Shown here: piece by piece, positions 12,229-49,626 of the stretch
Layout: the number at the start of each line of letters is the position of its first letter
Position numbering within the stretch: position 1 is the first letter of the stretch
Assembly (NCBI GenBank): GCA_019426215.1
Contig: CM033397.1
Span: 29,142,480 to 29,206,479, forward strand
Length of the DNA stretch: 64,000 nt
DNA from: Buddleja alternifolia
Taxonomy: Eukaryota; Streptophyta; Magnoliopsida; Lamiales; Scrophulariaceae
Direction: 5' to 3'
Notes under the pieces: model-generated
The model's database searches: none
What the model was told of the DNA's origin: nothing
What the model saw: the letters and a program-made list of their open reading frames with translations, nothing else
Translations under genes and position numbers: made by a program

Positions 12229-13200
12229 TGACACGAAAAATCCTTACGTGTATTAAACAGCAAGTGGACTGGTCGTGTGTAGTAATAAAGTGGACAATAA
12301 AGTCCGGGTTGTCGAACCTCAAGGACTTGTATTTTAGTTTATGATTTTAAAGCAATTGAAGAACTTAAACTAAAACAAGAATTAACTAAAATATTATGTA
12401 AGTAAGATATAAGAAACAAGATGTCGAAATCAAGATAGCTATGGAAAAGAGCAACTAAGACACATGTGTTGGCATAAATTAATCAATTTTCATTATAAAC
12501 ATGTTCTCATATTATTAGACTAATGTTGCTTTGGTGGAAAAAACCTTAAATAATTACTACCCGATTTCTCGGCTGTAATAATCCTATGATTAATTGATGG
12601 TTCTCTAGATATGTCTATCCGAGAATCTAACCAACAATCATGCATTCAAGTTCTAGAATTTCCCCGGATTAATCCGGCTAACTGCACCCGGGAATCTCTA
12701 CCTATCTCTAGGGGCAATTCCCTATTTTTTACGGATTATGTGATGATCCTCTTTGCACCTTAAATTAACTTCTCTCGAACGAATAATTTAAGCAATAAAT
12801 CATGCATATGGTAGCTAAGCATATGATGCATTCAAACAAGATCAAGACACAAAGCAACAATAGAATTAATATGAAAAACACAATTTATAACTCAATTATC
12901 ATAATTTAGCCTGAACATGGCCTTAGTTCGAAGAATCTATTTCATCATAAAAGATAAAAGATAGGAACTTAAATTAAGATTCATATTCATAGACAAAAAC
13001 AAATCTAAATCTAAGAAACTCCCTCGTATTTTTGATGGTTGAACTTCGATCTTCATCTCTTCCATGCTTCTTGATTTCTTCACCTTCAGAGGTTCTTGAT
13101 AATCTTCATAACTAATCTAAGGATGATGATAGGATGTGTTTAGGCTCCCCTAATGGGGAATGTGTTTTCAAGTGTGTTTGTAGGAGGGCATCCAATCCTT

Positions 13201-13208
13201 CTTTTATA
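13201..13208 (-). promoter_or_regulatory. TATA box in the 3' LTR
   Basis: On the minus strand the sequence is ggctataaaagaagg. The same motif occurs at 17750-17757 in the 5' LTR and at 60674-60681 in the related element, so it is a conserved promoter core. Confidence 0.65.
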
Positions 13209-13221
13209 GCCAAAAAAATTC

Positions 13222-13500
13222 ACCAACCAAGAACATGTGCTTCCATTCTCTTTTCTTTTCACCTACCATTCTCTTGCTTTTCATCTACCAAGAATGTGAA
13301 CTACCATTCTCTTGTTTTCCACCTACCATTCTCTTACTTTCCTCCTACCAAGAATGTGAACTACCATTCTCTTCTTTTCCATCTACCAAGAATGTGAACT
13401 ACCATTCTCTTGTTTTCCACCTACCATTCTCTTACTTTCCTCCTACCAAGAATGTGAACTACCATTCTCTTCCTTTCCATCTACCAAGAATGGGAGCTGC
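13222..13500 (-). repeat. Minisatellite within the LTR
   Basis: Units contain ctaccattctcttgttttcc, then acctaccattctcttacttt and ctaccaagaatgtgaa, with a basic period near 23-25 bp and a higher-order period near 60-110 bp. The same array is present at 17770-18050. It sits just downstream of the TATA box in the direction of transcription. ORFs of 87 and 102 aa here merely translate the repeat. Confidence 0.85.
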
Positions 13501-13957
13501 CACTTTCGTGTTTTCCAGCGCAGAGATAGTGTTTTATTCATAAAATTCTCCACAGACCTCCGAATTTGATGCTTCAAGTCCCCATGTGAAGATAAGACAT
13601 ACATCTACAACTTTGTAGAAGGACACTTCATCCAATTCTGTCTCTAAATATATCAAAATGACGTTCCAATGTGGAGGTTGTTTCTGATTTGGCGCCCAGG
13701 TGTGCGGAAATGGTACTAAAATATGATTTTGGCTAACTCCAGCTTGTTTCTTGCTTGTTTGGTCGCAGAGGTGTGAAACATCTTGGCCTAAACTTGTTTT
13801 ATACGTCCTTTTTCCACCCTTTATTCGATTGTATCCACTTAAGGCCTGAAATCACTTAATGCACGAATGAAACGCACAAGTGACAAAATCAAGCGATAAA
13901 TGAACCTAAAACATAAACGCAAAGGGGCTTAATAACACGTAGAAATGACTCCTATCA

Positions 13958-13972
13958 ACTCCCCCAAACTTA
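13958..13972 (-). other. Polypurine tract of the young gypsy element
   Basis: The minus strand reads taagtttgggggagt directly before the 3' LTR, the expected plus-strand primer position. The same wording follows the LTR at 61626 in the related copy. Confidence 0.75.
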
Positions 13973-15680
13973 TCAATTGCTCGACCTCGAGCAATAAAAG
14001 GTCTAGGGCACAAAAAACATCATCAACCAAAAGGAGAAAACAAAAACAACAAACGAACTCACTTTCGTGGAGTAAACGATTGTACTTAGAATGTGCAACA
14101 AGCCTTTAAACCTTTGAGTTACCTCAAAGGATGAGTTATAATCTCGTGAGGGTTTGCAGACGATATACCCACAAAATCTAACAAACTTTCAATCTCAACC
14201 AGATGATTACATCTCAACATAATTAACAAGAATAAATGGCACAAAATCATCCTTTTACAACTCACAAATATATATACATATCAACTACTTTTGCTCATGT
14301 GACACCAATACAGGAAAAGACTCCATAGGGTGTAGTGAAAATAAATCTAAGGTATTATAATCGAGAGGCATCCTTACCAAATTTTGGACATTAATCCCAT
14401 ATCTATCAACTTTATGATCGAACACAAAGCATAAGAATCATAGAAAATCTCATAGCCATTTAAATTTCATTATCTCAAACATTCAAACTTTCAATTCATA
14501 TAAAACTTTCCAATTAACTTCATTAAGACTAGATCATGTGCAATGTTTTATTCCATTAGGCTTTCTATGGCACCCATGTAACAAGCTTTAGATCAATGAC
14601 TCCCAAACTAGATAGTTTTGGGGCATTAAGTGTAAAGACACTCCGAAGGATTTAATCACTCGAGTGTCAAAGGCCACGAAATAAAACTAGATCTTTTAAA
14701 CAATTCGCTTCTTTTTGGCTTGAGCTTAGCTCAAATTAGCATAATAGTACAGTATATAGGCATGAAACTTTTCACCTCCAGTACATATTAGCCTGACCAC
14801 TTGTGGTCATACCAAACTTAAACCTTTTTAATTCATTGTTTAGCATAAAAAAATTACTACTCAACTTATAACCTTATGAAAAATCTAAGTTAATTTTTCC
14901 GGGAAAAACTCCTTAAGTGTCTCAAGATGGTTATCCTCTCAACTCCTCTACCCTCGATTTATTGTGCAATGTGAATCATCTAAGAAATCAATCCTAGTAT
15001 AGGATCTCCATGAGCCATTTCAAAGATATATATGTTCATTTAAATTCAAATTATTTCAAAAAATCATGTCATTTTTACAAGTTAATCAATTTAAATGCAT
15101 CAATTGGAAGGACTAAAAAAAAAAAATCATGCTTGATTTTCTCAACATAAACACATATAAACATGATAGCATACAAATTCCCCCAAACTTGAGCTAAACG
15201 AGGTACACATGACATGACAAAAATAGCAAACACATGGTGATCAATCATATGAATGTATTAAAACCACAAAGTACTACCCACATATTACTCCCCCAAACTT
15301 AAACTCAACATTGTCCCCAATGTTGTCTCACATAAACACATGCAAAAGGTATAAGAGTACTTATAATCAAGGATTGTTGAAAAACAATCCTTCATCACAA
15401 ATATGTTCCAAATCAAACCCATCTCATCAAAATAGGCCTCTCAAAACAACGGGGAATTGCTACTATAACAGGTTCAACATACTTATCAAACAAACCATCA
15501 AACATATGAAAACACATGCCAAAAGTGCATGCTTAGACAAAACAAATAAAACGAAAAGCAAAAACAAACAAATAAAGCAAAAAAAAAAAAAAAGAAAAGA
15601 AAAGAAAACTCACAAAGCTTGGGTTGCCTCCTAAGAAGCGCTCTTTTAAAGTCACTAGCTTGACTTTATGTAAGATATTG
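13973..15680 (-). other. Non-coding interior of the young gypsy element
   Basis: This 1.7-kb AT-rich stretch has no credible ORF. It is conserved in order and wording with 61640-63270 (for example cgacctcgagcaata and ttggcttgagc). Such long non-coding interiors are typical of large retrotransposon derivatives that use enzymes from other elements. Confidence 0.7.
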
Positions 15681-15682
15681 GA

Positions 15683-16642
15683 TCAAGGCGGTTTATGTAT
15701 GAATGCCTTATTCGTTCTCCAATCCACTATTGAGTATCGCTTCAACCTTTTGCCCTTTGTAGTGAAGATTGACCAATTATTTGTGCTACATATCCTAGGG
15801 TTAGACCAAGCAATCATCCACTCACGAGTTTTTTTATGGTCCCTCAATACCTCTATTACCTTTTCTTCCTCATGCTCCGGATGGTGGTGCAGATTTTTCT
15901 CCAAGCTAGAGATAATGTCTCGTTTTTCTTCAACAATCACCTTGACATATTTCAGCTCCATCATGTATGGATGTTGAAGATTATTGACTCGTTTTTCATG
16001 AAAGTGCTCAACACTAAAAGGATCAAAAACATCAATGTGTAAAGACAAATCAAAATCAATTAGATGCTCAAAAACCTCATAGTTATCGAAATTAACCATG
16101 TCATCTCCTACATTCAATAACAACTTACCATCGTCGGCATCAAATACCGATTTACCTGTGGCTAGGGAAGAAAGTAAAGAAATGTCAACACCCTCAGAAG
16201 GGATAGGAGTCGAATGCTCATCGTTGGAGGAATCTGCTTTCGAATTTTCAAACTTCATTTCATTCAACGTCACGGTGTTGAATTTCTCCTTTTGATCTAT
16301 CTTAGTGGTACCAAGCAATGCCCATGGTACTTTCTCAGATATGTCGCTCGTTAGTTGCTTGAGTTGATGATTCATCTCCTTCATTTCCCGCTGTGCGTCC
16401 TTCATCATAAAGTGGAGCTCTCCAATGGTGTTATCAAGTTGTTCCTCCGGAGTAGGAATTCTTTCTTGGTAATGTTGTGGAAAGAACCCTTGTGCATAAC
16501 ACGCTTCAATGACGCTTTGCAGCCATAATTGATTCTCCGGTAGTGTCATATCAGGAAAATTGCTATCCTTTGCGAATTGAATGACGCTTTGCAGCCATAA
16601 TTGATTCTCCGGAAGGGTTATATCTGGAAAATTTCGAGCCAT
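15683..16642 (-). CDS. Retrotransposon ORF with PR-RT linker-like fragments (319 aa)
   Basis: An uninterrupted 319-residue frame begins about 110 bp after the primer-binding site. Residues 1-50 hold a direct duplication of PDxTLPENQLWLQSVI, from a roughly 66-bp DNA repeat. A coiled-coil stretch with AQREMKEMNHQLKQL follows. Around residues 165-210, KSVFDADDGKLLLNVGDD and FDLSLHIDVFDPF resemble the segment just after the protease in plant gypsy polyproteins. VIEVLRDHKKTREWMIAW resembles the start of RT (LRxHKKAIGWTIADI). No catalytic motif of either enzyme remains. The frame is shared with the second family copy at 63.3-64.0 kb. Function is unknown: it could be packaged element protein or a relic. 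Confidence 0.7.
   Translation of the reverse strand: MARNFPDITLPENQLWLQSVIQFAKDSNFPDMTLPENQLWLQSVIEACYAQGFFPQHYQERIPTPEEQLDNTIGELHFMMKDAQREMKEMNHQLKQLTSDISEKVPWALLGTTKIDQKEKFNTVTLNEMKFENSKADSSNDEHSTPIPSEGVDISLLSSLATGKSVFDADDGKLLLNVGDDMVNFDNYEVFEHLIDFDLSLHIDVFDPFSVEHFHEKRVNNLQHPYMMELKYVKVIVEEKRDIISSLEKNLHHHPEHEEEKVIEVLRDHKKTREWMIAWSNPRICSTNNWSIFTTKGKRLKRYSIVDWRTNKAFIHKPP
16508..16635 (-). repeat. 66-bp in-frame tandem duplication in the ORF N-terminus
   Basis: The segment containing gacgctttgcagccataatt and gattctccgg occurs twice with a few differences. It adds 22 codons without a frameshift. Confidence 0.85.
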
Positions 16643-16754
16643 TGCGAGCTAAGAGTGTAAGAAAAAAATAAAAATAATAATAATAATAAAATTTAATAAA
16701 AATAAAATAAATACTTAAAACTTGCAATAAAATCAAAAACTAAAATTAAACAAG

Positions 16755-16772
16755 TCCCCGACAACGGCGCCA
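16755..16772 (-). other. Primer-binding site, tRNA-Asp
   Basis: On the plus strand tccccgacaacggcgcca equals the 3' end of plant tRNA-Asp including CCA, with one mismatch. It is separated from the LTR (TGACACG at 16779) by six bases, aaaact. Confidence 0.85.
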
Positions 16773-16778
16773 AAAACT

Positions 16779-18506
16779 TGACACGAAAAATCCTTACGTG
16801 TATTAAACAGCAAGTGGACTGGTCGTGTGTAGTAATAAAGTGGACAATAAAGTCCGGGTTGTCGAACCTCAAGGACTTGTATTTTAGTTTATGATTTTAA
16901 AGCAATTGAAGAACTTAAACTAAAACAAGAATTAACTAAAATATTATGTAAGTAAGATATAAGAAACAAGATGTCGAAATCAAGATAGCTATGAAAAGAG
17001 CAACTAAGACACATGTGTTGGCATAAATTAATCAATTTTCATTATAAACATGTTCTCATATTATTAGACTAATGTTGCTTTGGTGGAAAAAACCTTAAAT
17101 AATTACTACCCGATTTCTCGGCTGTAATAATCCTATGATTAATTGATGGTTCTCTAGATATGTCTATCCGAGAATCTAACCAACAATCATGCATTCAAGT
17201 TCTAGAATTTCCCCGGATTAATCTGGCTAACTGCACCCGGGAATCTCTACCTATCTCTAGGGGCAATTCCCTATTTTTTACGGATTATGTGATGATCCTC
17301 TTTGCACCTTAAATTAACTTCTCTCGAACGAATAATTTAAGCAATAAATCATGCATATGGTAGCTAAGCATATGATGCATTCAAACAAGATCAAGACACA
17401 AAGCAACAATAGAATTAATATGAAAAACACAATTTATAACTCAATTATCATAATTTAGCCTCAACATGGCCTTAGTTCGAAGAATCTATTTCATCATAAA
17501 AGATAAAAGATAGGAACTTAAATTAAGATTCATATTCATAGACAAAAACAAATCTAAATCTAAGAAACTCCCTCGTATTTTTTATGGTTGAACTTCGATC
17601 TTCATCTCTTCCATGCTTCTTGATTTCTTCACCTTCAAAGGTTCTTGATAATCTTCATAACTAATCTAAGGATGATGATAGGATGTGTTTAGGCTCCCCT
17701 AATGGGGAATGTGTTTTCAAGTGTGTTTGTAGGAGGGCATCCAATCCTTCTTTTATAGCCAAAAAAATTCACCAACCAAGAACATGTGCTTCCATTCTCT
17801 TTTCTTTTCACCTACCATTCTCTTGCTTTCCATCTACCAAGAATGTGAACTACCATTCTCTTGTTTTCCACCTACCATTCTCTTACTTTCCTCCTACCAA
17901 GAATGTGAACTACCATTCTCTTCTTTTCCATCTACCAAGAATGTGAACTACCATTCTCTTGTTTTCCACCTACCATTCTCTTACTTTTCTCCTACCAAGA
18001 ATGTGAACTACCATTCTCTTCCTTTCCATCTACCAAGAATGGGAGCTGCCACTTTCGTGTTTTCCAGCGCAGAGATAGTGTTTTATTCATAAAATTCTCC
18101 ACAGACCTCCGAATTTGATGCTTCAAGTCCCCATGTGAAGATAAGACATACATCTACAACTTTGTAGAAGGACACTTCATCCAATTCTGTCTCTAAATAT
18201 ATCAAAATGACGTTCCAATGTGGAGGTTGTTTCTGATTTGGCGCCCAGGTGTGCGGAAATGGTACTAAAATATGATTTTGGCTAACTCCAGCTTGTTTCT
18301 TGCTTGTTTGGTCGTAGAGGTGTGAAACATCTTGGCCTAAACTTGTTTTATACGTCCTTTTTCCACCCTTTATTCGATTGTATCCACTTAAGGCCTGAAA
18401 TCACTTAATGCACGAATTAAACGCACAAGTGACAAAATCAAGCGATAAATTAACCTAAAACATAAACGCAAAAGGGCTTAATAACACGTAGAAATGACTC
18501 CTATCA
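16779..18506 (-). repeat. 5' LTR of the young gypsy element
   Basis: The same boundaries (TGACACG to CTATCA) and internal features are seen as in 12229-13957, including the TATA box at 17750-17757 and the minisatellite at 17770-18050. The few differences are single-base changes or one-base gaps. Confidence 0.92.
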
Positions 18507-24899: not shown

Positions 24900-26534
24900 T
24901 GTTAGGTTTATGTCCTCAAATGTCGTTAGAGGATTAGAGAAAAAAAGGACATTGTCATATTGTAATTGTTATTATTATTTAATAAAAGACATTTTAGTTG
25001 TTTACTCTATTATTGGCATTTATATATTGTAATCATCTATAAGTCCATGAATACAAGAATTAGCTCTCTAAGGTATCAGAGGAGTTCAATACTTGTGTAC
25101 TAAAGTCTGCAAGTCAAGGATTCCCAATGGGGCATTGGAAATCATCAAGATTTGTATGATATGAGTTTTAACGAGAGAAGTGCCCGCCAATCACTAAGAA
25201 GTAGTGAAAAACTCATATCATAGGTACACTGATGAAGGTAGTGGCACTCAGACATGACTCGCATCTATTCTGTCACATGGGTTTTCACTCTTTAACGATC
25301 AATGATAGAATTAATTAAATTGTAGTAGGTGTGTCTGAAATTTAGACCTGAGGAATCGAGTTCAAGATATATTTGTGACATTAGGTTTGTTATTAGAGTA
25401 GTTAGGCCCAATTCACCCTTTTGTGGGGTCGACCACGAACTACATCCTAATGGGCAAGTAGCAGTCTTAACTAATATCCAAGAAGGGATTCGTTCCCTCG
25501 AAAGTGAACGACGAATTATCTTATACATTTATAAGTAAGTTAAGTTTTAAAGTCTTTGGCCAAAGCATTTTCTGATCTGTACTTATTATAAATATAGCAT
25601 AGAGTTGAGTTTACGAGTTTGACCTAAACCATGACTCTTACTTGACCCGGATAAGAAAACGAAGAATTTGAATTCACACGGTATTTACAATAAGAAAGGT
25701 AAACAATGATCTAATCATGTCATCTTATTTGGGATACGATGTGGGCCACTTGACTGGCTAAATATTACCCACATTCAATGGAATCCTCCCATTGTCAAAT
25801 ACAGATGAAACTAAAGAGTCACGCTTAAAAAGAAAAAATCGAACAAAATTATGGTGTATTTCTTGTAGCAATATTTTAAGTATTGGATACTTAAAATTAA
25901 TTAAATGGAATTAATTATTTGGAGAAATAAGCTAATTCATTTATGCTTTAATTAATATGATATTATTTGGAGAAATAAAATTAATTAAATATCCAATCTA
26001 TTATTTAATTAGATTAATTAATTGGATTGAATTAATTAATTAAATAAAGGATTGGACTGAGCTCAAATTGGTGCACCTTGACCGTGTATGTACGGCCTCT
26101 AGGCGTCCAACATGGGCTAAATAAAGACCAAGGTTGTAACTTAATGATATAAATATATCGCTTAATTAAACCTAAGTCATAATATAAGTTACAACACACT
26201 TGAGCTACAAGAAAGAAACTCCCACCCTCTCCAACTCTCTCTAGCCGTTGGCCTCACCAAGCCAAGAAAAGGAGATTTTTCGTTCGAGTTTTTCGGCGAG
26301 ACAGGCAGCACATTTGGACTGCTCGGATTATCAATCAGTCAGCCGGATCAGTTCGCGAAAGACTTGAAGAATTCAAAAGTTGTGATTCTATAACGATTTC
26401 ACTACACTTGATAAAGTATCGATATCTCTATCATATATACGCATGATAAAACCCCGGGGTTGATCCTGAATTGGGAAAATTTGAAAAATTTTATTACACT
26501 GTTTCCATTGCGTTTTCGTTTATTTTTCCCAACA
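24900..26534 (+). repeat. 5' LTR of the copia element
   Basis: It begins TGTTAGGTTTATGTCCTC and ends TTTTCCCAACA just before the PBS. It pairs with 32304-33957. A TATA-like gatataaatatatc lies at about 26145-26160, ahead of acaacacacttgagctacaa. Confidence 0.93.
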
Positions 26535-26535
26535 G

Positions 26536-26548
26536 TGGTATCAGAGCC
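26536..26548 (+). other. Primer-binding site, initiator tRNA-Met
   Basis: tggtatcagagcc lies one base after the LTR. It is the standard PBS of plant copia elements. Confidence 0.9.
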
Positions 26549-28351
26549 AAACCACACGGTTCGAAATATGTAATTTACGTGTATATATGTGATTAGATGC
26601 ATGATTTATAATTTTTCTCGATGCATGATTAGATATGTAGATTTCATGTTTTTGAGAAAATTTTATTTATTTTACTTGTTAAAAATTAATAAAATTGGAT
26701 TTTATGTAATTTTGATGTGATGAAATAATCATGAAAAGATGGGGGATCGTCTGCTCGTGTGCCGGTCTAGTAGCAGTCGGCTTTCACCGCCGGTTGTTCC
26801 CTCCGCCACTGCGGCGGCAAGTTTCGCTGCCGGAGATGCGGATTTTCGATCCCCCAGCAATGGGCTCGCACACACTACAGTTGGGCTATCGTGTGCGAAT
26901 GGGCCACATAGTTGCCAGACCGTTGTGCTGTTGGGTTCTACGGCGAGCCCGCCGTGTGTTTTTTAACACCGGACACATCAATCCTTCCCGGGTTGGCCCG
27001 TGGGTAACCCGGGTATATTTTTAATAAATAAATATATCTATTTTTTGATTAAAATTGGATTTTAATGCAAAAATAATAATATTATTTATTAAAGTAGGAT
27101 TTTAAAATTCCTAGTTATCTAATTTTATTAAAGTTGGACTTTAAATTAAATTGGATATTTTGTATTATAAAATTAATTTTAATAAACTTAGATGTTAATT
27201 TTTATTATAATTGGATTTTAATATAAAATTAATTGAAGTTTATTAATTTGGATTATTTAATAGAATCAAATAAATTTATTTTCCTCTAGAATATGAATTC
27301 AATAATTAAATTTGAAATTTAATTAGAAATTAACATATATGCTTTTCATGTGTTATGTGATATATCATGTTCGACATGTTATGTGATGTTCATAGATTTA
27401 GGCTCGTTTTATCAATGTATTTCTTTTTTTGATGTGTTGTAAAAGCCATTTTGAGCCTATGTTTATTTTCTTTTTATAGAATTTTGTATAGGTTAATTAT
27501 ATTAAATTGTAATAATTAGAAATAGAGTAGGGCCAAAGAAGAAATTCAAGTCGAGTCAAGGAGATACAAGAAGGATCTTTGGAAGCTCTAGTGCAGTTTC
27601 TTTTTAATTAGTGATTGAGGCATTGCTTAGCTCAATCTAGGATTAAGGTTCATGAATCATGTGTTGTTAGCTTTCTAGGATTGCTTTCGATTATTTAATT
27701 GATCCATGTGCAAAATGAGACCTATTAAATAATTAAATTCTTCTACTTTGAAAAATATTAAGTTGATAAAGGGTACTAGGTATCCTCTTCTCCACTGAAC
27801 TTATAAAAAGTTAAAATAATATTTAATATATAATATCATCTCTAAGCAATGGGGGTTATATAGAGAACTATATTCTAGATTTTTCTAAGTGCATGAAATG
27901 CCATTAGTCGAAACAAATTTCACCCGACATACCAGCAAAATGTTGCAAGGTAAAATTCAATTGTTAGACTAATAGAAAATCAGAGGGTTAAACTTAAATT
28001 ATTCATAAATCATTATGACCGTTAACAGGTTGAGATTTGATGAGTAATGAACAAAGGGATTGAATCATTCATTTGATGGGTTGATATTGGACATCACTTT
28101 AATAGATTAATTAGGCCACATACCAACAAAATGTTGCAACCTATTAAACTAATTAAAGAAATCAAGCACCACTACGAAGTCTTCCAACGATGACTTCAGA
28201 CTTCTGCAGTGGGAGTGTGGATTTTCAAAAAATGTAGTGGAAGCCGAGTTTATTTTATAAGTCCTTTATTTAAACTTGGAACAACAATTATGATAAAATC
28301 TAATAAGTTTTTTTACTTTTCTGCAGTTATTTGCTTATTATCTCTCTCATT
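26549..28351 (+). other. Copia leader with a GC-rich island
   Basis: This 1.8-kb untranslated leader is mostly AT-rich. At 26735-27015 it contains a strikingly GC-rich stretch (for example gccggtctagtagcagtcgg and ttgggttctacggcgagcc) with overlapping ORFs of 97 and 75 aa that match nothing I recognise. The island could be part of the RNA packaging leader or captured DNA. Confidence 0.6.
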
Positions 28352-29190
28352 ATGACTATCAACCTGTTATATGTACTACTGAAAAGAATACCTTGACTGG
28401 TCCAAACTATGTGGACTGGCTCCGAAATCTGAGGATAGTCCTCAATATGGAGTCACTGGGATATGTATTTGATGATGATATCCCAGCTGCGCCTGTAAGA
28501 ACGCGTGCTACTGAGGAGGAAGTCGCGGCTCATGAAAAATGGGTCAAAGACAACGTCCAGGTTTGTGAGTATATGCTAGGCTCAATGACTAATGAGTTGC
28601 AAAGATCTCATGACAAAATGGTCTCGGTGAGGGCTATTTTGGCACACCTAGTAGATCTCTATGGTGAGCATAGTCGTACTGCTTGATATGAGATATCGAA
28701 AGAGCTCTTTGGAGCCAAGATGAATGAAGGTGAGAAAGTTGGGGATCATGTACTTAAAATGATTTCGAAAATTGAGAGGTTAGAGGCCCTTGACTTCAAC
28801 ATGGACCCGCAATTACACACAGACCTCATCTTGCAATCACTTTCAGACTCCTTTTCCCCAATATGTAATGAACTTCAACTGCAATGAGATAGAGTGCAAT
28901 CTAGCTAGGTTGATGAACAAACTTGCAACTGCACAATCTGAAGTGAAGCCAAAGGGAAAAGAGGCAGTCTTAGTCATCACTTCTAAGCCTAGAAGAAGAT
29001 GAAGAAAAAGAAGGGTAAGAAGCCCTTTGGCACTTCAGGTCCACATGCTAAGATAAACAAAGGAACGAGTAAAGCTCTAAAAATGATGAAAATCAAAGGT
29101 TCAAAAGAAACAAATAGGTGCCTTCACTGTGGTGAGCTAGGCCACTGGAAGAGGAAGTGTCCTAACTTTGGCAAGGGTGCAGCAAATATG
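28352..29190 (+). pseudogene. Copia gag pseudogene
   Basis: LTGPNYVDWLRNLRIVLNME is the conserved capsid start. EYMLGSMTNELQ and ISKELFGAKMNEGEKVGDHV continue it across a stop at 28684. The frame shifts near 28870, and the zinc knuckle CLHCGELGHWKRKC (about 29119-29160) is intact as CX2CX4HX4C. Gag would coat and package the RNA. At least three disabling changes are visible. Confidence 0.9.
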
Positions 29191-29826
29191 GAACTTTTTG
29201 TTTTAGAAATCAATTGTTCTATAACTGTATTTTCCACTTCGTGGATACTTAATTCTGGAGCTAGTGCTCATGCTTCGATAATAAATCAGGATCTGGAGCA
29301 AAGTAGGAAGCTGGAGCATGGAAAGGTGCTGATTAGTGTTGCCAGTGGGCAGAGTGTCGCGGCTTCTCATATTAGATCAACTTCTTTATATTTATTATCT
29401 GGACATGTTTCAATTTTAGAGGATATTTTAGTTTTGCCCAACAGGCTTAAGAACATTATTTCAACTCCTGTGTTAGTTAGGAATAATTATGTTTTTAATT
29501 TCATTGACAGTACTTGCAACATTTTATTAAATAATAAGATTGTTGACACTGCTACTTTAGTTAATGGCCTCTATTATTTAAATATGCAAAATGAATGTGT
29601 TGTGAATGTTATCTCAAAGAAGCGAGGTACGCAAGGTCCTAACCTAAGCTTGAAGTGGCATCTTAGACTAGGCCATGCTGGCGAGCAGAAGATACATAAG
29701 ATGGAGAAAGACAGGTTAATAAATCCATTGGGATTGGATCCCTATCCAACTTGTGAATCTTGTCTTAAAGGCAAAATGACTAGATCTGCCTTCACTGGGA
29801 CTTTGAAAGGGCCACTGAAGTATTAG
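29191..29826 (+). pseudogene. Copia protease and pre-integrase region
   Basis: WILNSGASAHA is the protease active-site motif, normally LDSGASxH; Asp has changed to Asn, so cleavage activity would be lost. LKWHLRLGHAGEQKIHKM and CESCLKGKMTRSAFTG form the GAG-pre-integrase block with its HHCC-type zinc site. The frame stops after GPLKY at 29826. Confidence 0.88.
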
Positions 29827-30653
29827 GACTTGCGCACAACGATGTTTGCGAACCATTTGGAGAAATGGCTCATGGAGGTTTTCACTATTTCATTACTTTC
29901 ACTAATGATCATTCAAGGTATGGGCTTGTGTACTTAATGAAACACAAGTCTGAATCATTTGAAAAGTTCAAAGAATTTAAGGCTTTAGTTGAAAATCAAA
30001 CTGGACATCATATAAAAGCACTACGATCGGATCGTGGAAGTGAATATATGAGTGATGAGTTCTTAAAGGAACATGGGATAATATTACAACTCACACTACC
30101 ATCAACTCCATAACTAAATGGGGTAGCTGAGCACAGAAATCGAACGCTTTTAGACATGATTCGATCTATGCTCAGCTACGCTGATTTACTCATTTTCTTG
30201 TGGGGACATGCACTCCTTATTTCTATTCATATCTTGAATAGATGTCCTTCCAAATCCGTTCCTAAGACTCCATATGAAATATGGAGAAATAAGAAACTAA
30301 ACCTTAAATATATTAGGGCTTGGGGATGCCTTGCCTATATCAAGAAGGGAAAGGCAGATAAATTGGAAGCAAGGTCCTATAAAGGGCGTTTCGTTGGTTA
30401 TCCTGAGGATTCCATGGGATACCTCTTCTACATGCAAGATGATCAAAGGATCATTGTTGCACTGCAAACGGACTTTCTTGAAGATGAGTTTATTCAAGAA
30501 GGTGGTGTAGGTAGAAAGATTGTTCTTGATGAACAAAATGAAACACCTAGGGAGACAACTTATGAAGAAACACATACTGAACATATTGAAACACAACCAA
30601 CATTGCAAAGATCTAGTAGAGTGCCGCATCAACCTGAAAGGTACTATAGATAA
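29827..30653 (+). pseudogene. Copia integrase
   Basis: YFITFTNDHSRYGLVYLM gives the first Asp and ALRSDRGSEYMSDEF the second. After a TAA at 30111, LNGVAEHRNRTLLDM supplies the Glu of the DD35E triad. The C-terminal part with YEIWRNKKLNLKYIRAWGC and GYPEDSMGYLFY is preserved. All three catalytic residues are readable, but a stop separates the second from the third. Confidence 0.9.
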
Positions 30654-31754
30654 CTGCTACAAGAGAAACTTAGTGTCCACACTATAGCAGTGGGAGTTCA
30701 TGGGGAGGACACTTCTACTTATGATCAAGCAATGATGGACATGGACTCTGCAAAGTAGCAAGAAGCTATGCAAGCGAAGATAGACTCGATCAATTCCAAC
30801 TAGTTCTAAACTCTGGTAGATAGTCCCAAAGGTATAGCACCAATAGGGTGTAAATGGATCTATAAGAGGAAGATAGGCCCAGACGAAAAAGTTGACACAT
30901 ACAAGACAAGGTTTGTAGAAAAATTTTATAGTCAAAAGGAAGGAATTGACTATCAAGAAACCTTTTCACCTATGGCAATGATCAAATCGATTGGAATTCT
31001 GCTTGCAATAACTGCATACATGGATTATGGGATATGGTAGATGGATGTGAAAACGGTTTTTCTGAATGGATACCTTGAAGAAGATATCTATATAGATCAT
31101 CCTAAAGGCTTTACATCTGTGTCTGGTATTCATAAGGTGTGTAAGCTTAAGAGATCTATTTATGGACTTAAGCAAGCTTCTAGGAGTTGGAATCTTCATT
31201 TTGATGAAGCTATCAAAGGATTTGACTTTATCAAGAATGAAGATGAACCATGTGTTTACAAGAAGGTTTGTGGGAGCAAGATCACTTTCCTAGCCCTAAA
31301 TGTGGATGACGTTCTACTCATAGGAAATGATGTAGGAATGCTGACTTCAGTCAAAACGTGGCTTTCAAATACATTCTCCATGAAAGACTTGGGAGAAGCA
31401 ACCTATATTTTAGGAATTCGTATCTATAGAGATAGAACAAATATAATGATAGGAATTTTTCAAGCCCTTTACTTAGAGAAGGTCCTAAAGAGATTTAGGA
31501 TGGAGGACTCGAAGAAAGGCTTCTTGCCCATGAGACATGGGGTGCACCTTTCAAAGTCTATGTCTCCTCAAAGTGAGGAAGATAGAAAGGAAATGGGTAT
31601 GATGACTTATGCATCTGCAGTGGGTAGTCTAATGTATACCATTTTATGCACACGGTGCGACATAACCTACGCAGTTAGCGTGGTAAGTCATTTTCAGGCT
31701 AACTCGGGAAGAGAACATTGGACCGCTGTAAAAAAATATCCTAAAATATTTTAA
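30654..31754 (+). pseudogene. Copia reverse transcriptase
   Basis: GCKWIYKRKIGPDEKVDTYK and GIDYQETFSPMAMIKSI open the domain. Motif A reads W-stop-MDVKTVFLNG, with CAG changed to TAG. IYGLKQASRSWNLHF follows, then the catalytic box LNVDDVLLIGND, where LYVDD is usual. SMKDLGEATYILGI and the ASAVGSLMYTILCTRCDI thumb block complete it. The stop in motif A and scattered stops at 30750-31040 disable it. Confidence 0.9.
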
Positions 31755-32298
31755 TAGAACTGTGGATATGGTCCTAACATATGGACATGGAGATTTGAAA
31801 GTGGATGGATATACTGACTCAGATTTCCAATCTGATGTAGATGATCGAAAATCCACTTTAGGGTTTGTATTCACACTAAATAGTGGAGCACTAACTTGGA
31901 AAAGTTCCAAGCAAAGTACAACCGTTGATTCCACCACTAAGATAGAACACATAGTGGCGTCCGAGGCTGCTAAAGAGAGTGTTTGGATTAGGAATTTTTT
32001 TGGAGAACTTCAAGTGGTCCCTACTATAGAGCTGTCATTGCCACTTTATTGTGACAATAATGGGGCTACTGCAAAAACAAAGGAACCAAGGTCTCACAAC
32101 AAATCCAAACACATAGAGAGGAGATATCATATAATAATGGAAATCGTTACAAGAGGCGAAACTGCTGTACAGAGAAAAAATTCAACTGACAATGTTGCTG
32201 ACCCATTGACCAAGCCTTTGACAAAGGCAGTGCTGGATCGACATCTTGAGAGAAGATGGGTATTAGATACCATAGTGATTGGAATTGAGTACAAGTGA
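31755..32298 (+). pseudogene. Copia RNase H
   Basis: VDGYTDSDFQSDVDDRKSTL, TTVDSTTKIEHIVASEAAKE, LYCDNNGATA and KSKHIERRYHII are the standard copia RNase H blocks, open from 31762 to the stop at 32298. A short frameshift separates them from the RT. The 3' LTR begins six bases after the stop, past gagagat. Confidence 0.9.
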
Positions 32299-32303
32299 GA
32301 GAT

Positions 32304-33957
32304 TGTTAGGTTTATGTCCTCAAATGCCATTAGAGGAGTACAGAAAGAAAGGACATTGTCATATTATAATTATTATTATTCTTTAATAAAAGGCATTTTA
32401 GTTGTTTACTCTATTATTAGCATTTATATATTGTAATCATCTATAAGTCCATGAATACAAGAGTTAGCTCTCTAAGGCACTAGAGGAGTTCAATACTTGT
32501 GTACTAAAATAGTCTGCCAGTTAAGGATTCCCAATTGGGCATTAGAAATCATCAAGACTTTTATGATATAAGTTTTAACGAGAGAAGTGCCCGTCAATCA
32601 CTAAGAAGTAGTGAAGAACTCATATCATAGGTGCACTGATAAAGTTAGTGGCACTCAGACATGACTCGCATTGATTCTGTCACATGGGTTTTCACTCTTT
32701 GACGGTTAATGACAGAATTGATTAAATTGTAACAGGTGTGTCTGAACTTTAACATGAGGAATCGAGTTCAAGATATACTTGTGACATTAGGTTTGTCGTT
32801 AGAGTAGTTAGTCCCAATCCACCCTTTGGTGGGGTCGACCTCGAACTGCATCCTAATGGGCAAGTAGTAGTCTTAATTGATATCCAAGAAGAGATTCGTT
32901 CCCTCGAAAGTGAACGAGGAATTATCTTATGCATTTATAAGTAAGTTAGATCTTAAAGTTTTTGGCCAAAGCATTCTCTGATCTGGACTTATTATAAATA
33001 TAGCATAGAGTTGAGTTTATGAGTTTGACCTAAACCATGACTCCTACTTGACCGGGATAAGGAAACGAAGAGTTCGAATTCACACGGTATTTACAATAGG
33101 AAAGGTAAACAATAATCTAATCATTTCATCTTATTTGGGATATGATGTGGGCCACTCAACTGGCTAGGTGTTACGTACATTTAATGGAATACTCTCATTA
33201 CCAAATATAGATGAACCTAAAGAGTCACGCTTGAAAAGAAAAAATCGAACGAAATTATGGTGTATTTCTTGAAGCAATATTTTAAGTATTGGATACTTAA
33301 AATTATTTGAATGGAATTAATTATTTGGAGAAATAAGCTAATTCATTTGCGCTTTAATTAATATATTATTTCTTGGAGAAAAAAATTAATTAAACATCCC
33401 ATCTATTATTCAATTAGATTAATTAATTAGATTAAATTAATTAATTAAATAAAGAATTGGACTGAGCTCAAATTGGTGCACCAAGAGGTGCACCTTGGCC
33501 GTGTATGAACGGCCTCTAGGCATCCAACATGGGCTAAATAAAACCCAAGGTTGTAACTTAATGATATAAATATATCACTTAATTAAACCTAGTTCATAAT
33601 ATAAGTTACAACACACTTGAGCTACAAGAAAGAAACTCCCACCTTCCCAACTCTCTCTAGCCGTTGGCCTCACCAAGCCAAGAAGAGGAGATTTTTCGTT
33701 CGATTTTTCCGGCTAGACAATTTAGAGGCAACACTTTTGGACTGCTCAGATTATCAATCAGTCAGCCGGATCAGTTCGTGAAAGACTTGAAGAATTTGAA
33801 AGTTGTGATTCTCCAACCACTTCGCTACAACTAGTAAAGTATCGATATCTCTATCATATATACGCGTGATAAAACCCCGGGGTTGATCCTGAATTGAGAA
33901 AATCTGAAAAATTTATTACACCGTTTTCGCTGCGTTTTTCGTTTATTTTTTCCAACA
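32304..33957 (+). repeat. 3' LTR of the copia element
   Basis: It starts TGTTAGGTTTATGTCCTC and ends TTTTTTCCAACA. Differences from the 5' LTR include a 12-bp insertion repeating ggtgcacc near 33470. Confidence 0.93.
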
Positions 33958-35770: not shown

Positions 35771-35818
35771 CCAAAATTGCATATTTAAGCCAATACAATT
35801 CATTCTCAAACAAATAAA

Positions 35819-36235
35819 ATGGGTCATACTATGATCAAGATCCTAGTAGTACTCTTCACTCTATTTTCCAATTTCCTCCTACCGATTTCTCAGGCTTGTA
35901 CAAATATTACCCCTAAAATCAGAACCGGTATATTCAATAACCTCCCACCTGGCTCTGCTCCATTGTCGCTTCATTGTGCATCAGCGGATGATGATCTTGG
36001 CAATCATACACTTTACGTAAACCAAAATTTTACATGGAGTTTTTGTGTAAATATTGGTCATACTACATTGTTTTACTGCGATCTTCATTGGGGTCGAAAA
36101 CAACAATCTTTTCATGCCTTTGACGGAAAAGTGTTAAATGATTGTAATAATGGGTTATGTTATTGGTTGGCAAAGGCCGATGGTATTTACTTTCAGAAAG
36201 ATAAAAGATTGGTCAAAAAATATTATTGGCATTAA
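35819..36235 (+). CDS. S-protein homolog (plant self-incompatibility S1 family), secreted
   Basis: This intact, intronless frame of 138 residues is the normal length for the family. Residues 1-26 form a signal peptide (hydrophobic core ILVVLFTLFSNFLLP, cleavage after SQA). The mature part has the family order: an LHCASADDDLG block (Cys53), FTWSFCVNI (Cys76), TLFYCDLHWG (Cys87), then DCNNGLCYWLAKADGIYF (Cys109, Cys114), so two disulfides plus extra cysteines are likely. Asn-X-Thr sites occur at 29, 62 and 70. Family members are small extracellular proteins; the founding Papaver member is a pollen-recognition ligand, while most homologs have no known role. The start is supported by the signal peptide and nearby TATA box. 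Confidence 0.92.
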   Translation: MGHTMIKILVVLFTLFSNFLLPISQACTNITPKIRTGIFNNLPPGSAPLSLHCASADDDLGNHTLYVNQNFTWSFCVNIGHTTLFYCDLHWGRKQQSFHAFDGKVLNDCNNGLCYWLAKADGIYFQKDKRLVKKYYWH

Positions 36236-36699: not shown

Positions 36700-37290
36700 C
36701 TGCCATTAGCAACTTAATATCAATAAGATTTAGAAATCAGGTCAAATTCATAGCAAACCTTTATCCTGATCATCATCAGATATTGTTCTCATATTAAAGT
36801 CATCTAATTAAATTCTATGTATGTGTAGGATATATAGCTCCATTAAAATCAGCTTTACCATATACAAAGCTTTTGAACCGGGTAGATTTTGCACCATAAA
36901 TTCTTAGGATCTCCTTCATATTTTTTGTTGTTCTTGGACCTGAAAAATAATATAGCGGAATTAGAAGGCACATCGAGGATTTTTCCGGCGTTTGTCCTCC
37001 GACACTCAAGTCAGAAACGTTCTATATGAAAGAGCATATTAAAAATCTTATAATGCTATATCTGCCTTCTCCTGTTTAATCTTGAGAAGACTAGTATTTA
37101 TAATTATATATAATAGAACACAAAAAACCCTAACAAGGTAGATTTGTTGGGCTTGGGCCACAGTGCAATTCATATATTCAACTTAGCCCAATGAGCATAT
37201 TTTACCTACATCGGGTATATATGCATATATCTATTCAACTTAAAGAAATACAATTACACTCATACGAAGATAGCAAGATTTACTTAGAAT
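36700..37290 (-). mobile_element. Ty3/gypsy LTR fragment
   Basis: On the minus strand tataaatactagtcttctca is followed by gacttgagtgtcggaggaca and later tttttcaggtccaagaacaa. This order (TATA, then ttgagtgtcggagg) is characteristic of plant Tat-like gypsy LTRs as I know them. The ends are not defined, and a 64-aa ORF here is incidental. Confidence 0.45.
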
Positions 37291-37313
37291 GCAAATTAAG
37301 TCCCTTATATTTT

Positions 37314-37574
37314 AGGAAAAAAAAACACAAATCCCCTCATTTATTGTGTAATTACTAAAAACTCCCCTCACATTTTCAAAATTACATAAAGTTCTCTTCA
37401 TATTAAGGCATTTCTTACAATTACGCCCCCTGTGAATTTAATATTTATTACAATTTATCCCTATAAACTTTATAAATAGATCTCTTAAGGAGGTGTGTTG
37501 ATAATTTTAGATAAGTGATGGAGAGTTTGAATAATTATACAATAAAGTAGTGGATCTGTGTGTAATTTTCCCTT
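37314..37574. mobile_element. MITE related to the element at 23009
   Basis: The left aggaaaaaaaaacacaaatc...tttattgtgtaattact and the inverted right agggaaaattacacacagat...tttattgtataattatt form repeats of about 55 bp. Wording and size class match the nested relative at 23.2-23.4 kb. No ORF is present. Confidence 0.6.
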
Positions 37575-38150
37575 TCTTTTAATTTAAACTTTATATCAAT
37601 AATTGGGGAACAGAGAAAGGAGGGGATTGGCTTCTACTTTTTGCAGATTTACAACTTCGCGCCAGCACGTGAACGGTGCATGACCAGTGGGGACTACAAT
37701 TAGAAGTACCCCACGCTCATTTTTATTCAATATATTTTAACAAGGAATGTCACTTATTATAATACCTAAATTATTACGTTTATCTCACTTGCATCTTTAA
37801 ACTAAAGTTTGTTATGCTATCGTTTCTAAAATAATAATATCGTCTCACTTTAGTCCTTTCCAGTGGTTTGTGATCGAAACTATCAATTTCTGGTGGTCCG
37901 CGAAGTGTTAAATTTGTATCACTTTGATCCCTAAACCCAAAAAGATAGGAAAATTTCTAGCATTTTTTACAATCTATTTTATGTTAATTATTATTATTAT
38001 TATTTAACTAATATACATTAGTATATACTTATAGGTTTTGTCGAATAGAAGGATAAAAAATTATACATATTAATAATTAATTCCTAAATAAAATAATAGA
38101 AACAACTACCTTATATGATTATTATTATTTAGCTAATATATACTAATAGT
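37575..38150. other. AT-rich spacer with weak 100-bp repetition
   Basis: No gene is seen. attattattatttagctaat-type motifs and cctaaataaaataatag recur with about 100-bp spacing at 37985-38150. Confidence 0.5.
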
Positions 38151-38183
38151 CAATTTCTAAATAAAATGATACAAAATAATAAT
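38151..38183. repeat. 33-bp direct repeat left of the tRNA-LTR fusion
   Basis: caatttctaaataaaatgat plus acaaaataataat is repeated at 39561-39593 with a single mismatch. It ends exactly where the inserted segment begins. Confidence 0.85.
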
Positions 38184-38184
38184 G

Positions 38185-38244
38185 GTGGTAAGTACTCCTG
38201 CCAGTCACGCGGGTGACCTGGGTTCAATCCCTGCAACGGCGCCA
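38185..38244 (+). other. tRNA-Asp(GUC)-derived segment ending in CCA, fused to an LTR
   Basis: gtggtaagtactcctgcc, the anticodon region cagtcacgcgggtgac, the T-loop gggttcaatcc and caacggcgcca follow the order and wording of plant tRNA-Asp from its D-loop to its 3' end. Roughly six differences from the sequence as I recall it include a base lost in the T-stem. The first 14 tRNA bases are absent, so it is not a working gene. Nuclear tRNA genes do not encode CCA, so its presence points to origin from a mature tRNA used as primer. Confidence 0.8.
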
Positions 38245-38250
38245 AAAATT

Positions 38251-39560
38251 TGACACGAAAAATTCTTACGTGTATTAAATAGCAAATGGACTGGTTATGT
38301 GCAGTAATAAATTGGACTTTAAGTCCGAGTTATCGATTCCACAGAGACAAGATTATTAAAACCAAAGATTTTAAAAGCAATTAGAATTAAATTAATATAT
38401 TGTAATTAAGTAACGATAAAAAGGTGAAAATGAGACTTAGCAAATTGATTGAGATTCTTATGTGAGAAAACAACTAAGACACATGATTCAGCCGAATTAC
38501 TTATTTAAATATAGGAATTATTCTTTGAATTATTAGACTACTTTTGCTTTGGTGGAAAAATCTTAAATAATTACTACCCGATGTTTCGAAAATAATAATC
38601 CTATGATTAATTGACAGTTTCTAGAATATCTTTATCCGAGAATCTAACCAATAATCATACATTCAAGTTTTAGAATTTTTCCGGATTAATTCAGCTAACT
38701 GCATCTGTGAATCTCTACATATGTCTAGGACAACTCCTTATTGTTTACGGATCATGTGGTGATTTCTTTGAACCCTAACATATATTCTTTCGAACTATTA
38801 AGCTAGGCAAAACATATGGTGATCAAACATATGCCAGTAATTAAATCACAAAATCAATACACAAAGTAATTGTAGAATTAACACGAAGAACAATATCATA
38901 GATATAAAATTATAATCCGGCCTTCACATGGCCCTAGTTTGATGAAATTAGTTTATAATCGTAATGCGAAAAATAAATAAAGACATAGAATTATTCATAG
39001 ACAAAACTAAATCTAAAAATCTCACTATTACGGATTGATGAATAATCTCGGTGTAGAATCGTTCTTCTTCTTGCCTTGGCTCGTCTTCTTGCTCGAAAGT
39101 CTATCAAAGTGTTGAATTTTCGAACCCTTTTGCTGTTGGAAGAGGTGGTGTTTATAAGAGAAACTCCCCAAGTCTTCTACCTGAATTAGGTATCAAAACT
39201 TTCCAAATTTTCTCCAGCCGCATGCAGAGTTCGAACTTGATGTTACTCACGTTCGTACTTGGTGACGTGGCATAAGTGGATTGATTGGGCGTTGATTGTG
39301 TTGGCGTTAGAACTTCACAATCTTCAAGTTCGAACTTGGTGATGTGGCACGTTCGTACTTGAATCTCTCCAAGTTTGTACTTGGCATGCAGTTTCTCCTG
39401 AAATTATACTTTTTTCGTCCCTTTTCCTCGATTGTTATGATTTTCAACTTGTACTCATTTAACGGACAAATCAAAGCCAACAAGTGGTAAAAGTCATACA
39501 TATTCGACCCTAAACCATACGAATATCAGCCTCTCAATTACGTAAAACTCACGCTTATCA
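38251..39560 (-). repeat. Solo LTR of the tRNA-Asp-primed gypsy family, joined to tRNA sequence
   Basis: On the plus strand it runs from TGACACGAAAAATTCTTACG to GCTTATCA, with the same opening and layout as the LTR at 12229 (gcagtaataaattggac, gtccgagttatcga). It is 1310 bp. The six-base spacer aaaatt and tRNA-derived sequence precede it, exactly where the primer-binding site of a complete element would lie. No interior or second LTR is present. It ends flush against the 33-bp direct repeat. Confidence 0.85.
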
Positions 39561-39593
39561 CAATTTCTAAATAAAATAATACAAAATAATAAT
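39561..39593. repeat. 33-bp direct repeat right of the tRNA-LTR fusion
   Basis: Partner of 38151-38183 (32 of 33 identical). It is far longer than the 5-bp duplication left by LTR integrase. Confidence 0.85.
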
Positions 39594-40383
39594 TAATTTC
39601 TACTTATTAAATAATTAAACGATTGCTCAATCATTCAATTAATTAAATTTAATTATTAAAAATTAAAAAATCACAAACTACAAGATAATTATATTGATTT
39701 ATTTTAATTTCTATAATAAGATGAATATTTTAACAAGATAGGTAAAATATATTAACTAATAATCAATTAAATATCAATTACAATAAAAAAATAATTATCT
39801 ATTATAGAGTAATAACACTTAAATTATATTTTTAGTGACAAATTAAATGCTATTCGTTAAGAATAGGAAAAAAAAGGGAAAACAAACCATAAAACAAGGA
39901 AAAAGATAAGGAAAATATTCGTTAACCTGCATCTCCACTTATTCAGACATGTACTTTGAATTATGATTTTTGATCACGTCTTAAGCGATCAACCTATTAA
40001 CAAATTAGTTTTTGCACAATGAATGCTAGAAAAATCAATTTTATAAATTATCCATGCTATGTTGCGAAAAGACCGTTATACGTATAATTTTTTATAACTG
40101 CACATAAGGTTCATAGGTCTGATATATATTAGATAAATAATAACACTTAAAATAAGCAGAATCTATATATGATCAGAAAGTAAACCGAAATAAAATTCAT
40201 CAGCTACAAAAGAGCACAAAATTCAAATAAGGGAATCTCCCAAACCATCTAAACCCGAAAATGGATCAATTGGGTGCATAACCTCCAAATGAAACATCAT
40301 TTACTAAATAATGCTCTTATAAAAAGTATTTCTTAATTTATTTTCTTTATTCAGTTTTAGCGTAGTAAGATCAAATTATCCTT
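39594..40383. other. AT-rich spacer
   Basis: No gene, RNA or mobile element is recognised. Confidence 0.5.
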
Positions 40384-40721
40384 ATGAAAAAGAGAAAAAA
40401 CTCAAATCCAAAAAACCCATTCCCCATCGCTCTTGTCTTATTCTCGAAAAGAAAAACCCGCATTACTCACTCTCAAAAAGAAAAGCTCAATGGTTTTCAA
40501 CTTGTTTACAATTGGGTGCTTTTCTTTTTCTCTTGGGCGACTCAATTTCGTTTTTATTTGTTAGGATTCACGCAAGTGTATGTTTCTCTTAATTGGGATT
40601 TAATTTCTCACTCTTGTTTTGAACAAAAGGGTCCTTGTAATTTTATTAAAGCTGGGTTATAGCAGCCTTTGAAAATCCTAGTTTGGTTGGTTGATTTTTT
40701 TTTTTCGGGTTTAATGTAAAA
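40384..40721 (+). other. Low-confidence transcript-leader-like stretch
   Basis: A 92-residue ORF (40384-40662) rich in Phe, Lys and Ser lies in DNA with pyrimidine-rich runs resembling a plant 5' UTR. No domain is recognised and no downstream coding exon follows before the MITE at 40722. It is probably non-coding. Confidence 0.25.
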
Positions 40722-48232: not shown

Positions 48233-49347
48233 TCAGTTGAATTTTTTATGTGTAAGCTTGCCAAAAGATTCCATGAACAGACATAAAATTTTCCCAGCCA
48301 ATATCAATCTCACTTGGCCAACTTTAGCCTCCTGGGGGAGACTAAAAAACATGGCTAGCACTTGGGTGTTCTTCACAATCATGTTTGTTGCCACGAGCTT
48401 CTCATCTAAGGTTAAATCTGGTATTTCATTCACAATATGATAAACAGACTTGCATTTACGAGTCAACTCATGTTCGTGCCCCATCTTACCAATAATGTTA
48501 CGTAGTCGTGAATCCGTTTTCTTGGTGAAATTATTTAGGCCATCCATAATTGGACCTACAATGCCTTCGGACAGTTTGCGCTTGCCCTTGCTAGCTGGTT
48601 TGGTTGTAGTGCCACTACCGGGCTCACAAACTGGAGTGGTGGCTACTTCCTCAGCTGACGGAGTTTCCGGTGTATCAATGTCTTCCAAGTTTGTTGCAGG
48701 AGGAGTCTGGGGCTATGTTTCAGTTTCCGTATTTATCACACCAACAAAAGCATCATGAAAGTCTTCAGCTCCGTTGCCATTGGCCCGGTCTTTCCCAAAT
48801 ATTTCACACCAAGAGTCGTAGTAAGGCCACGACTTCCATCTCATCGAACGGGCCATAGGTTCAGTCTACACGATCACAAACGATATATAATTACCATTAC
48901 GTAATAATTGACTAGTATAATGAATACCAAAAATTGACAAGACATATGCATGCAGAGGGAAATAAGTTATATCGTTTGCCATACCTTACAGGCAGCCTCC
49001 CATTGCTCATCACTATCTGTTTTAATCATCTTTGTTGTCGAGTTCCACCCTATTCCGGAAGCCCCGAAAATAACATATAATGTGTTATATTGTTTCTTCC
49101 ATGCGTGCATCTTAGAACTTATGTGGGGCTGAGCACGAAGACCAGTAGTCAGAAACACCTTCATTATCTTATCTTGTAGCACATTTAAATAACCCACAGG
49201 GAACCCATTATCAGCCTTCCAACCACTAGTTAAAATTTCCTTCAGTGCTTGAACCAATGCATCTTCCTCCGGTCTAGTCCACATCCTCCTGCATACAACA
49301 GGTTTCCTGCCCCTACAACTTGTTGTGAAACTCCCAGAAGCATCCAT
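48233..49347 (-). pseudogene. Harbinger ORF1, Myb/SANT-like partner protein
   Basis: Exon 1 (48985-49347): a basic start, then RMWTRPEEDALVQALKEILT, KMHAWKKQYNTLYVIFGASG and GWNSTTKMIKTDSDEQWEAA. A 119-bp intron (48866-48984) leads to exon 2 with RWKSWPYYDSWCEIFGKDRA, an acidic linker, a KGKRKLSEG basic patch and a C-terminal helical domain (LVATNMIVKNTQVLAMFFSL) ending near residue 330. Its place beside the transposase fits the second gene needed for Harbinger movement. One TAG at 48713-48715 breaks exon 2; otherwise it is complete. Confidence 0.82.
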
Positions 49348-49626
49348 ATGTAGAATCTGTCAATCATGGCCAAAAACAATTGTGTCAAAAAAAAATTTAT
49401 TCAATTCAACCTCAACAAAACCATTATAAATTTATAAGCATATGAATAATTCAAACAAGGTGCACATAGTTTAATAAAATCACATAAGAGCAGTATACAC
49501 ATACAACCAATTTCTAACAAAAAAAAATACAATAAAGCATATACATCTCAATTTCGGTTTGCACAACCCACGAAATTATTAAACGAGTACATCATCATTC
49601 ATATGCGAAAATGCATATGCAGATTT

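Follow-up and report, generated by a model that had tools for sequence, protein, structure and literature searches.

The DNA analysed here, referred to as the window, is a stretch of 64,000 nucleotides from Buddleja alternifolia. An open frame at 35789-36235 belongs to S1, a family of plant self-incompatibility proteins (PF05938, E 7e-28), for which the matches listed include 14 homologues, 11 of them with an organism name; ten of these eleven are from Lamiales (Phtheirospermum, Paulownia, Olea, Striga, Erythranthe, Castilleja and Handroanthus), which points to this order for the host. A copia-type element occupies approximately positions 24900-33957, with LTRs about 90% identical; TGGTATCAGAGC at 26536 is its primer-binding site (PBS) motif, and it includes a fragment of RVT_2. 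The first 693 positions of the window form a diverged tandem array in a 22-bp register, and a minus-strand open reading frame at 48967-49359 specifies a Myb/SANT-like DNA-binding domain (PF12776), possibly from a PIF/Harbinger-type transposon.

The locus under study is an insert of 1377 bp on the minus strand (38184-39560) that is enclosed by direct repeats of 33 bp. Reading along the minus strand, a complete LTR of 1310 bp is followed by a spacer of 6 nt and then by 61 bases that match tRNA-Asp(GUC) from its CCA end to the D-loop. The order of these parts is directly visible, and so is the fact that the insert starts exactly at the U3 terminus, has the spacer and the CCA, and carries a tRNA copy extending past A58; the insert contains no internal region beyond the PBS. 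The features are collected in Table 1.

Table 1. Features of the insert at 38184-39560, its flanking repeats and the related element used as a control (positions in the window)
Feature	Positions	Strand	Remarks
Left 33-bp direct repeat (target duplication)	38151..38183	.	32/33 identical to 39561-39593; adjoins the insert exactly
tRNA-Asp(GUC) copy, D-loop to CCA	38184..38244	- (tRNA sense on +)	Local alignment, 54/62 columns identical
Equivalent of tRNA A58, usual plus-strand stop	38227..38227	-	Alignment
Equivalent of normal PBS, 17 nt, one base fewer than the tRNA	38228..38244	-	Alignment
6-nt spacer between LTR and PBS	38245..38250	-	AAAATT on +
Complete 1310-bp LTR, TGATAA...CGTGTCA	38251..39560	-	Both termini align with LTR termini of two related elements
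Right 33-bp direct repeat	39561..39593	.	32/33 identical to left copy
Related element (control)	12229..18506	-	LTRs 12229-13957 and 16779-18506; PBS 16755-16772; duplication GCCGC (12224-12228, 18507-18511)

A complete LTR and a six-base spacer had both been proposed in the initial annotation, and both descriptions hold. The candidate LTR was aligned with three others, two from one related element and one from a second, and the four rows share the same first bases (TGATA) and last bases (CGTGTCA), indicating that the LTR is complete although its mid-U3 is unlike that of the three related LTRs. Position 39560 aligns with the first LTR base of the two related elements, which places the 5' end of the insert at the first base of U3. 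The spacer (AAAATT) differs from that of the related element (AAAACT) at one base of six. A stretch of 43 bp within the LTR (38810-38852) matches the internal region of the related element at 15228-15270 (BLAST, E 1e-5), and a BLAST comparison of the tRNA extension with that internal region gave no match. Neither end of the insert carries poly-A; at the tRNA end there is an AAT run, which both copies of the repeat contain.

The tRNA match comprises 54 identical columns out of 62 when counted from 38184 (7 substitutions and 1 gap), or 56 of 64 from 38182, because the two bases at 38182-38183 (AT) can be assigned either to the repeat or to the tRNA copy. In the standard tRNA numbering, A58 lies at 38227, and the match runs from there on to nt 15, or to nt 12 if AT is counted. 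The portion past the normal PBS scores 63 by itself; the highest score was 23 when the 110-bp region was Markov-shuffled 2000 times, and 27 when a 2-kb piece was shuffled 200 times. When the whole window was scanned for tRNA-Asp, the candidate scored 86 and the runner-up, at 31, was the PBS of the related element. The assignment to tRNA-Asp from D-loop to CCA made from the letters of the insert is thus upheld, with the addition that the copy has diverged.

The tRNA-Asp reference used for these alignments is a putative plant sequence, supported over nt 19-51 by its fold. ARAGORN identifies it as tRNA-Asp(gtc). The initial 18 nt and the terminal 24 nt, CCA among them, have appeared as the miRNAs miR6300 and miR8175 (PMC7510087), and the 18-mer was used as a tRNA-Asp primer in another study (PMC6521008); the reverse primer of that study, made for bisulfite-treated RNA, agrees with the reference at only 12 of 18 bases. 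A functional tRNA gene at the candidate was considered and rejected, as ARAGORN found none in the window and Rfam none at gathering score. A permissive Rfam search of 221 bases listed three matches with E from 3 to 9.3, to a Streptococcus sRNA, a CRISPR repeat and a tymovirus tRNA-like element, all of them under gathering score, and the tRNA family itself was not among them. Patterns for the tRNA-Asp core and two forms of extended PBS had no matches among the viral contigs of IMG/VR, and a pattern for an extended PBS had none in contigs of prokaryote genomes; plant DNA is not expected in either collection, and the result carries no information on plants.

The two 33-bp repeats are identical at 32 positions and both abut the ends of the insert exactly. 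Placing an insert of 1377 bp at 62,557 sites in the window gave at least 28 identical positions out of 33 only here and at eight register shifts. Between the flanks (37001-38183 and 39561-40700) the next-best pair of 33-mers agrees at 27 positions. The bracketing repeats described in the initial annotation are confirmed. The site lies in AT-rich, weakly self-similar DNA, and the left flank holds weaker relatives of the repeat and of its right-hand neighbour (38078-38110 and 38063-38102). Target duplications of plant LTR elements measure 5 bp (93.4%), 4 bp (6.2%) or 6 bp (0.4%) (PMC6317226), a range that the candidate's 33 bp falls outside.

An element in the window at 12229-18506 is the nearest relative of the candidate (73% alike over 38234-39017 by BLAST) and provides an internal control. 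Its LTRs of 1729 and 1728 bp are identical at 1718 of 1728 aligned positions, its PBS matches tRNA-Asp at 17 of 18 nt with the match ending there, just before A58, and a 5-bp duplication (GCCGC) flanks it on both sides. This relative thus uses tRNA-Asp and integrated normally, and it bears out the expectation, stated before this analysis, that an ordinary element would keep about 18 nt of tRNA and a 5-bp duplication. The candidate departs from it in three ways: it has a single LTR, a tRNA copy that continues past A58 and a long duplication. The control shows that the tRNA extension is not general in the wider family; it does not follow that the extension is unique to the candidate. An open reading frame within the control (15683-16648, minus strand, 321 aa) has no Pfam match, and a protein search with it yielded 975 candidates and no homologue at E <= 0.001. 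Judging from this one frame and from an internal region of only about 2.8 kb, the control element looks non-autonomous.

A third related element was found on the minus strand at 59701-61625, its other end falling outside the window. The outer flank of its 3' LTR (59693-59701) reads CAAAAACT, which reproduces the control element's spacer and first two PBS bases (8/8 identical) where a target duplication would be expected; the chance of such a match is about 9e-5 given the local composition. The flank may reflect a deletion or a cDNA end that escaped trimming.

The insert begins at an exact LTR terminus and stops within the primer tRNA, as expected of plus-strand strong-stop DNA, and the CCA together with the family's own spacer ties the tRNA to the LTR as primer and product rather than as a chance neighbouring tRNA gene. 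We therefore infer that the insert originated as a read-through plus-strand strong-stop cDNA and was joined into the chromosome by host break repair, and we hold this reading with a probability of roughly 0.55; this figure, like the wording given to the alternatives, reflects judgement rather than computation. In a tRNA-Asp-primed LTR retrotransposon, plus-strand synthesis would start at the polypurine tract with the first base of U3, run through U3, R and U5 on the minus-strand template and proceed into the still-attached tRNA. Here copying would have passed A58 and reached about nt 12-15 of the tRNA, although trimming during joining could possibly have set this end. Because its 3' end would be unpaired with the minus strand beyond the PBS, the product could not complete second strand transfer. 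Such a dead-end cDNA may then have been joined into a chromosomal break with strand cuts about 33 nt apart, and fill-in of both break ends would generate the 33-bp duplication.

Several of these steps have precedents. Plus-strand synthesis normally halts at m1A58. For HIV, a review (PMC13191261) describes that in vitro copying of a tRNA without modifications reaches the 5' end, that mutation of the m1A58 enzyme lets plus-strand synthesis pass A58 in cells, and that the useful plus-strand products are only those halting at or near A58; on this basis a molecule copied to nt 12-15 would be a dead end with the ends observed here. In Arabidopsis, reads of the nuclear tRNA-AspGTC are almost all full-length (PMC11658184). 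A preprint on yeast (PMC10802722) places the hotspot of Ty1 capture at breaks in the 3' LTR and reports cDNA-only nucleotides in 40 of 56 wild-type 3'-LTR break inserts, and a further study again derives most Ty1 insertions from the 3' LTR (PMC11724301). As for the repeats, natural human and plant insertions have hinted that tandem duplications result from repair of breaks formed by nearby nicks on opposite strands (PMC8355091).

The alternative closest to this reading accepts the same read-through cDNA and differs in how it entered the chromosome: integrase would have joined the intact U3 end, and host repair the tRNA-capped end, giving rise to an abnormal 33-bp duplication. Integrase needs a CA terminus, which the tRNA-capped end lacks, and the insert does have a U3 end exact to the base and another end inside the tRNA. 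The exact U3 start is nevertheless undiscriminating, since plus-strand DNA itself begins there, and a strong-stop molecule would present the integrase complex with no normal pair of ends. HIV integrations under suboptimal raltegravir do carry deletions, duplications, insertions and inversions (PMC5041404). While we regard integrase joining at one end as unlikely, together with host repair at the other it would leave nearly the same scar. What survives of the earlier interpretation is accordingly that the structure fits a read-through strong-stop cDNA and not ordinary two-ended integration; capture at a staggered break is our preferred route for that cDNA on grounds of inference. Whether through host break repair or with an integrase-joined U3 end, the fixation of a read-through cDNA in the chromosome is, taking both routes jointly, probable.

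A different origin of the tRNA-like stretch has also to be weighed, in which it was acquired earlier and inherited in the internal region of the element, so that the insert would be an ordinary truncated cDNA, reaching 67 nt past the LTR into the internal region and taken up at a break. The PBS and the extension have both diverged and the LTR is not CpG-poor, as if the divergence were older than the insertion. However, the stretch is absent from the related element at 12229-18506, and the similarity to tRNA stops exactly at the end of the insert, 11-14 nt short of a full-length tRNA, an endpoint that is natural for a copy of a primer and a coincidence for an inherited region. The one-base deletion in the PBS should moreover hinder priming. 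We consider inheritance rather unlikely. Very unlikely, in our judgement, is either that a local tandem duplication had already produced the 33-bp repeats and a piece of LTR landed at their border by chance, or that a later deletion reduced a full-length element to what is left: the weaker relatives of the repeat in the left flank do suggest a region prone to local duplication, but other pairs in the compared flanks reach at most 27 of 33 against 32 of 33 here, and exact abutment of both repeats on the insert would be rare from random landing or later deletion. Plant genomes commonly carry tRNA-derived sequences, and LINE duplications can exceed 5 bp, which lends some plausibility to a genomic fragment of a tRNA-Asp gene or a tRNA-derived SINE beside a solo LTR, or to a LINE-mediated retrocopy. 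Against these, the insert has a CCA, next to which come the PBS spacer and LTR end that belong to this family, the tRNA copy has the antisense orientation to the element that a primer would have, and neither end of the insert has a poly-A tail, leaving such origins scarcely credible.

We also considered a primer cut beforehand at the site that ends an abundant 18-nt 5' fragment of tRNA-Asp, GTCGTTGTAGTATAGTGG, which is printed in three papers (PMC7510087, PMC8747174 and PMC6521008). This is not supported, because the copy includes GTGG (nt 15-18), upstream of that cut. Plant elements primed by partial tRNAs are mentioned in a review (PMC12786077), and a cut at some other site is still conceivable.

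Some observations weigh against a fresh capture of a read-through cDNA. The tRNA part differs from the putative plant tRNA-Asp reference by 7 substitutions and 1 deletion. Four of the seven substitutions fall at CpG sites, which make up 16 of 64 columns (Fisher p = 0.059), and this placement suggests that deamination may have contributed. The candidate LTR, however, has a CpG observed/expected ratio of 1.08, compared with 0.59 in the control-element LTRs. This high ratio comes partly from CpG-bearing short repeats in U3. In the R-U5 half, CG in a relative corresponds to TG or CA in the candidate at 2, 3 and 2 sites against the three related LTRs, with 1, 1 and 7 sites in the reverse direction; in the U3 half the corresponding counts are 0, 0 and 0, with 3, 3 and 2 in reverse. 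As the LTR shows little CpG loss against its relatives, decay of the tRNA copy after insertion is only partly convincing as an explanation. Substitutions outside CpG occupy 3 of 48 columns in the tRNA copy compared with 1 of 33 between the repeats (p = 0.31), numbers too small to decide. Either the tRNA part had already diverged at insertion, having been inherited or copied from a variant tRNA, or our assumptions about methylation and age do not hold.

Substitutions at modified bases, considered as a signature of bypass, were rejected: in the alignment there is none at A58 or at the modified positions 54, 55, 34, 37, 16 and 20. The endpoint at nt 12-15 is neither the 5' end of the tRNA nor, to our knowledge, a stop. 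The m1A58 signature is called ubiquitous in Arabidopsis nuclear tRNAs in the study cited above (PMC11658184), whose lower size cut of about 35 nt makes it uninformative on stops at A58. Length is a further point. Yeast break inserts are biased to about 45-300 bp (PMC10802722) and filler DNA in maize is described with lengths of at most 131 bp (PMC2686159); 1377 bp is long for break capture. The diverged tRNA part beside an LTR that is not CpG-poor, and the length of the insert, both count against a fresh capture.

If the read-through reading is correct, the locus is a natural, germline-fixed record of an intermediate in reverse transcription, of a kind otherwise known to us from work in vitro, in infected cells and in assays of break repair in yeast. 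Retrotransposon intermediates would then join the DNA captured by plant break repair, and how strictly synthesis stops at A58 in retrotransposons of plants could be tested by counting LTR-tRNA junctions in sequenced genomes. Each step is known separately; within the limited test made here, it is their combination as a natural germline fossil that would be new. Among the matches listed from open-access titles and the beginnings of abstracts there was no report of a genomic LTR joined to an extended copy of its primer tRNA, which is weak evidence for novelty. We suggest, more tentatively, that LTR-tRNA inserts might form a class of their own that can be recognised in genomes, as fossils of plus-strand strong-stop DNA extended past the m1A58 stop, and that tRNA-Asp-primed families might be rich in them because tRNA-Asp offers few hard stops upstream of A58; this generalisation is doubtful at present. 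Were it true, counts of such inserts would measure, from sequence alone, the rate at which reverse transcriptase passes a methylated base in a lineage. The third related LTR, with the spacer and two PBS bases in its outer flank, may be a milder form of the same failure.

The candidate can be set beside several known systems. With a solo LTR formed by LTR-LTR recombination it shares the single LTR; such an LTR is flanked directly by a short integration duplication, without PBS or tRNA, whereas the 33-bp repeats of the candidate enclose the LTR, the spacer and the tRNA copy. A LINE retrocopy or SINE is recognised by a poly-A or simple-repeat tail beside the duplication, and the ends of the candidate have no poly-A. 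In yeast, Ty1 cDNA has reportedly been captured at double-strand breaks (work attributed to Moore and Haber, 1996, and to Teng et al., 1996). In the more recent yeast data (PMC10802722) the 3'-LTR hotspot and the cDNA-only nucleotides in inserts resemble the candidate, while the breaks were induced and the inserts biased to about 45-300 bp; the candidate is 1377 bp long, includes about 61 nt of tRNA and is bounded by a 33-bp duplication. Helenus TRIMs (PMC10886601) likewise link LTR and tRNA sequence, but their tRNA-like part lies inside the LTRs and their duplication is 4-5 bp, whereas in the candidate the tRNA copy is outside the LTR, antisense and continuous with the PBS; these TRIMs are defined by two LTRs with a PBS and a PPT between them, and the candidate has one LTR with the tRNA copy beside the spacer. 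A further counterpart is the HIV-1 plus-strand strong-stop product read through into tRNA-Lys3, named 'P1' (PMC13191261), which like the candidate starts at U3 and ends in the primer tRNA past A58. P1 is a replication product seen in vitro or in cells, whereas the candidate is fixed in a plant chromosome, carries tRNA-Asp and ends near nt 12-15.
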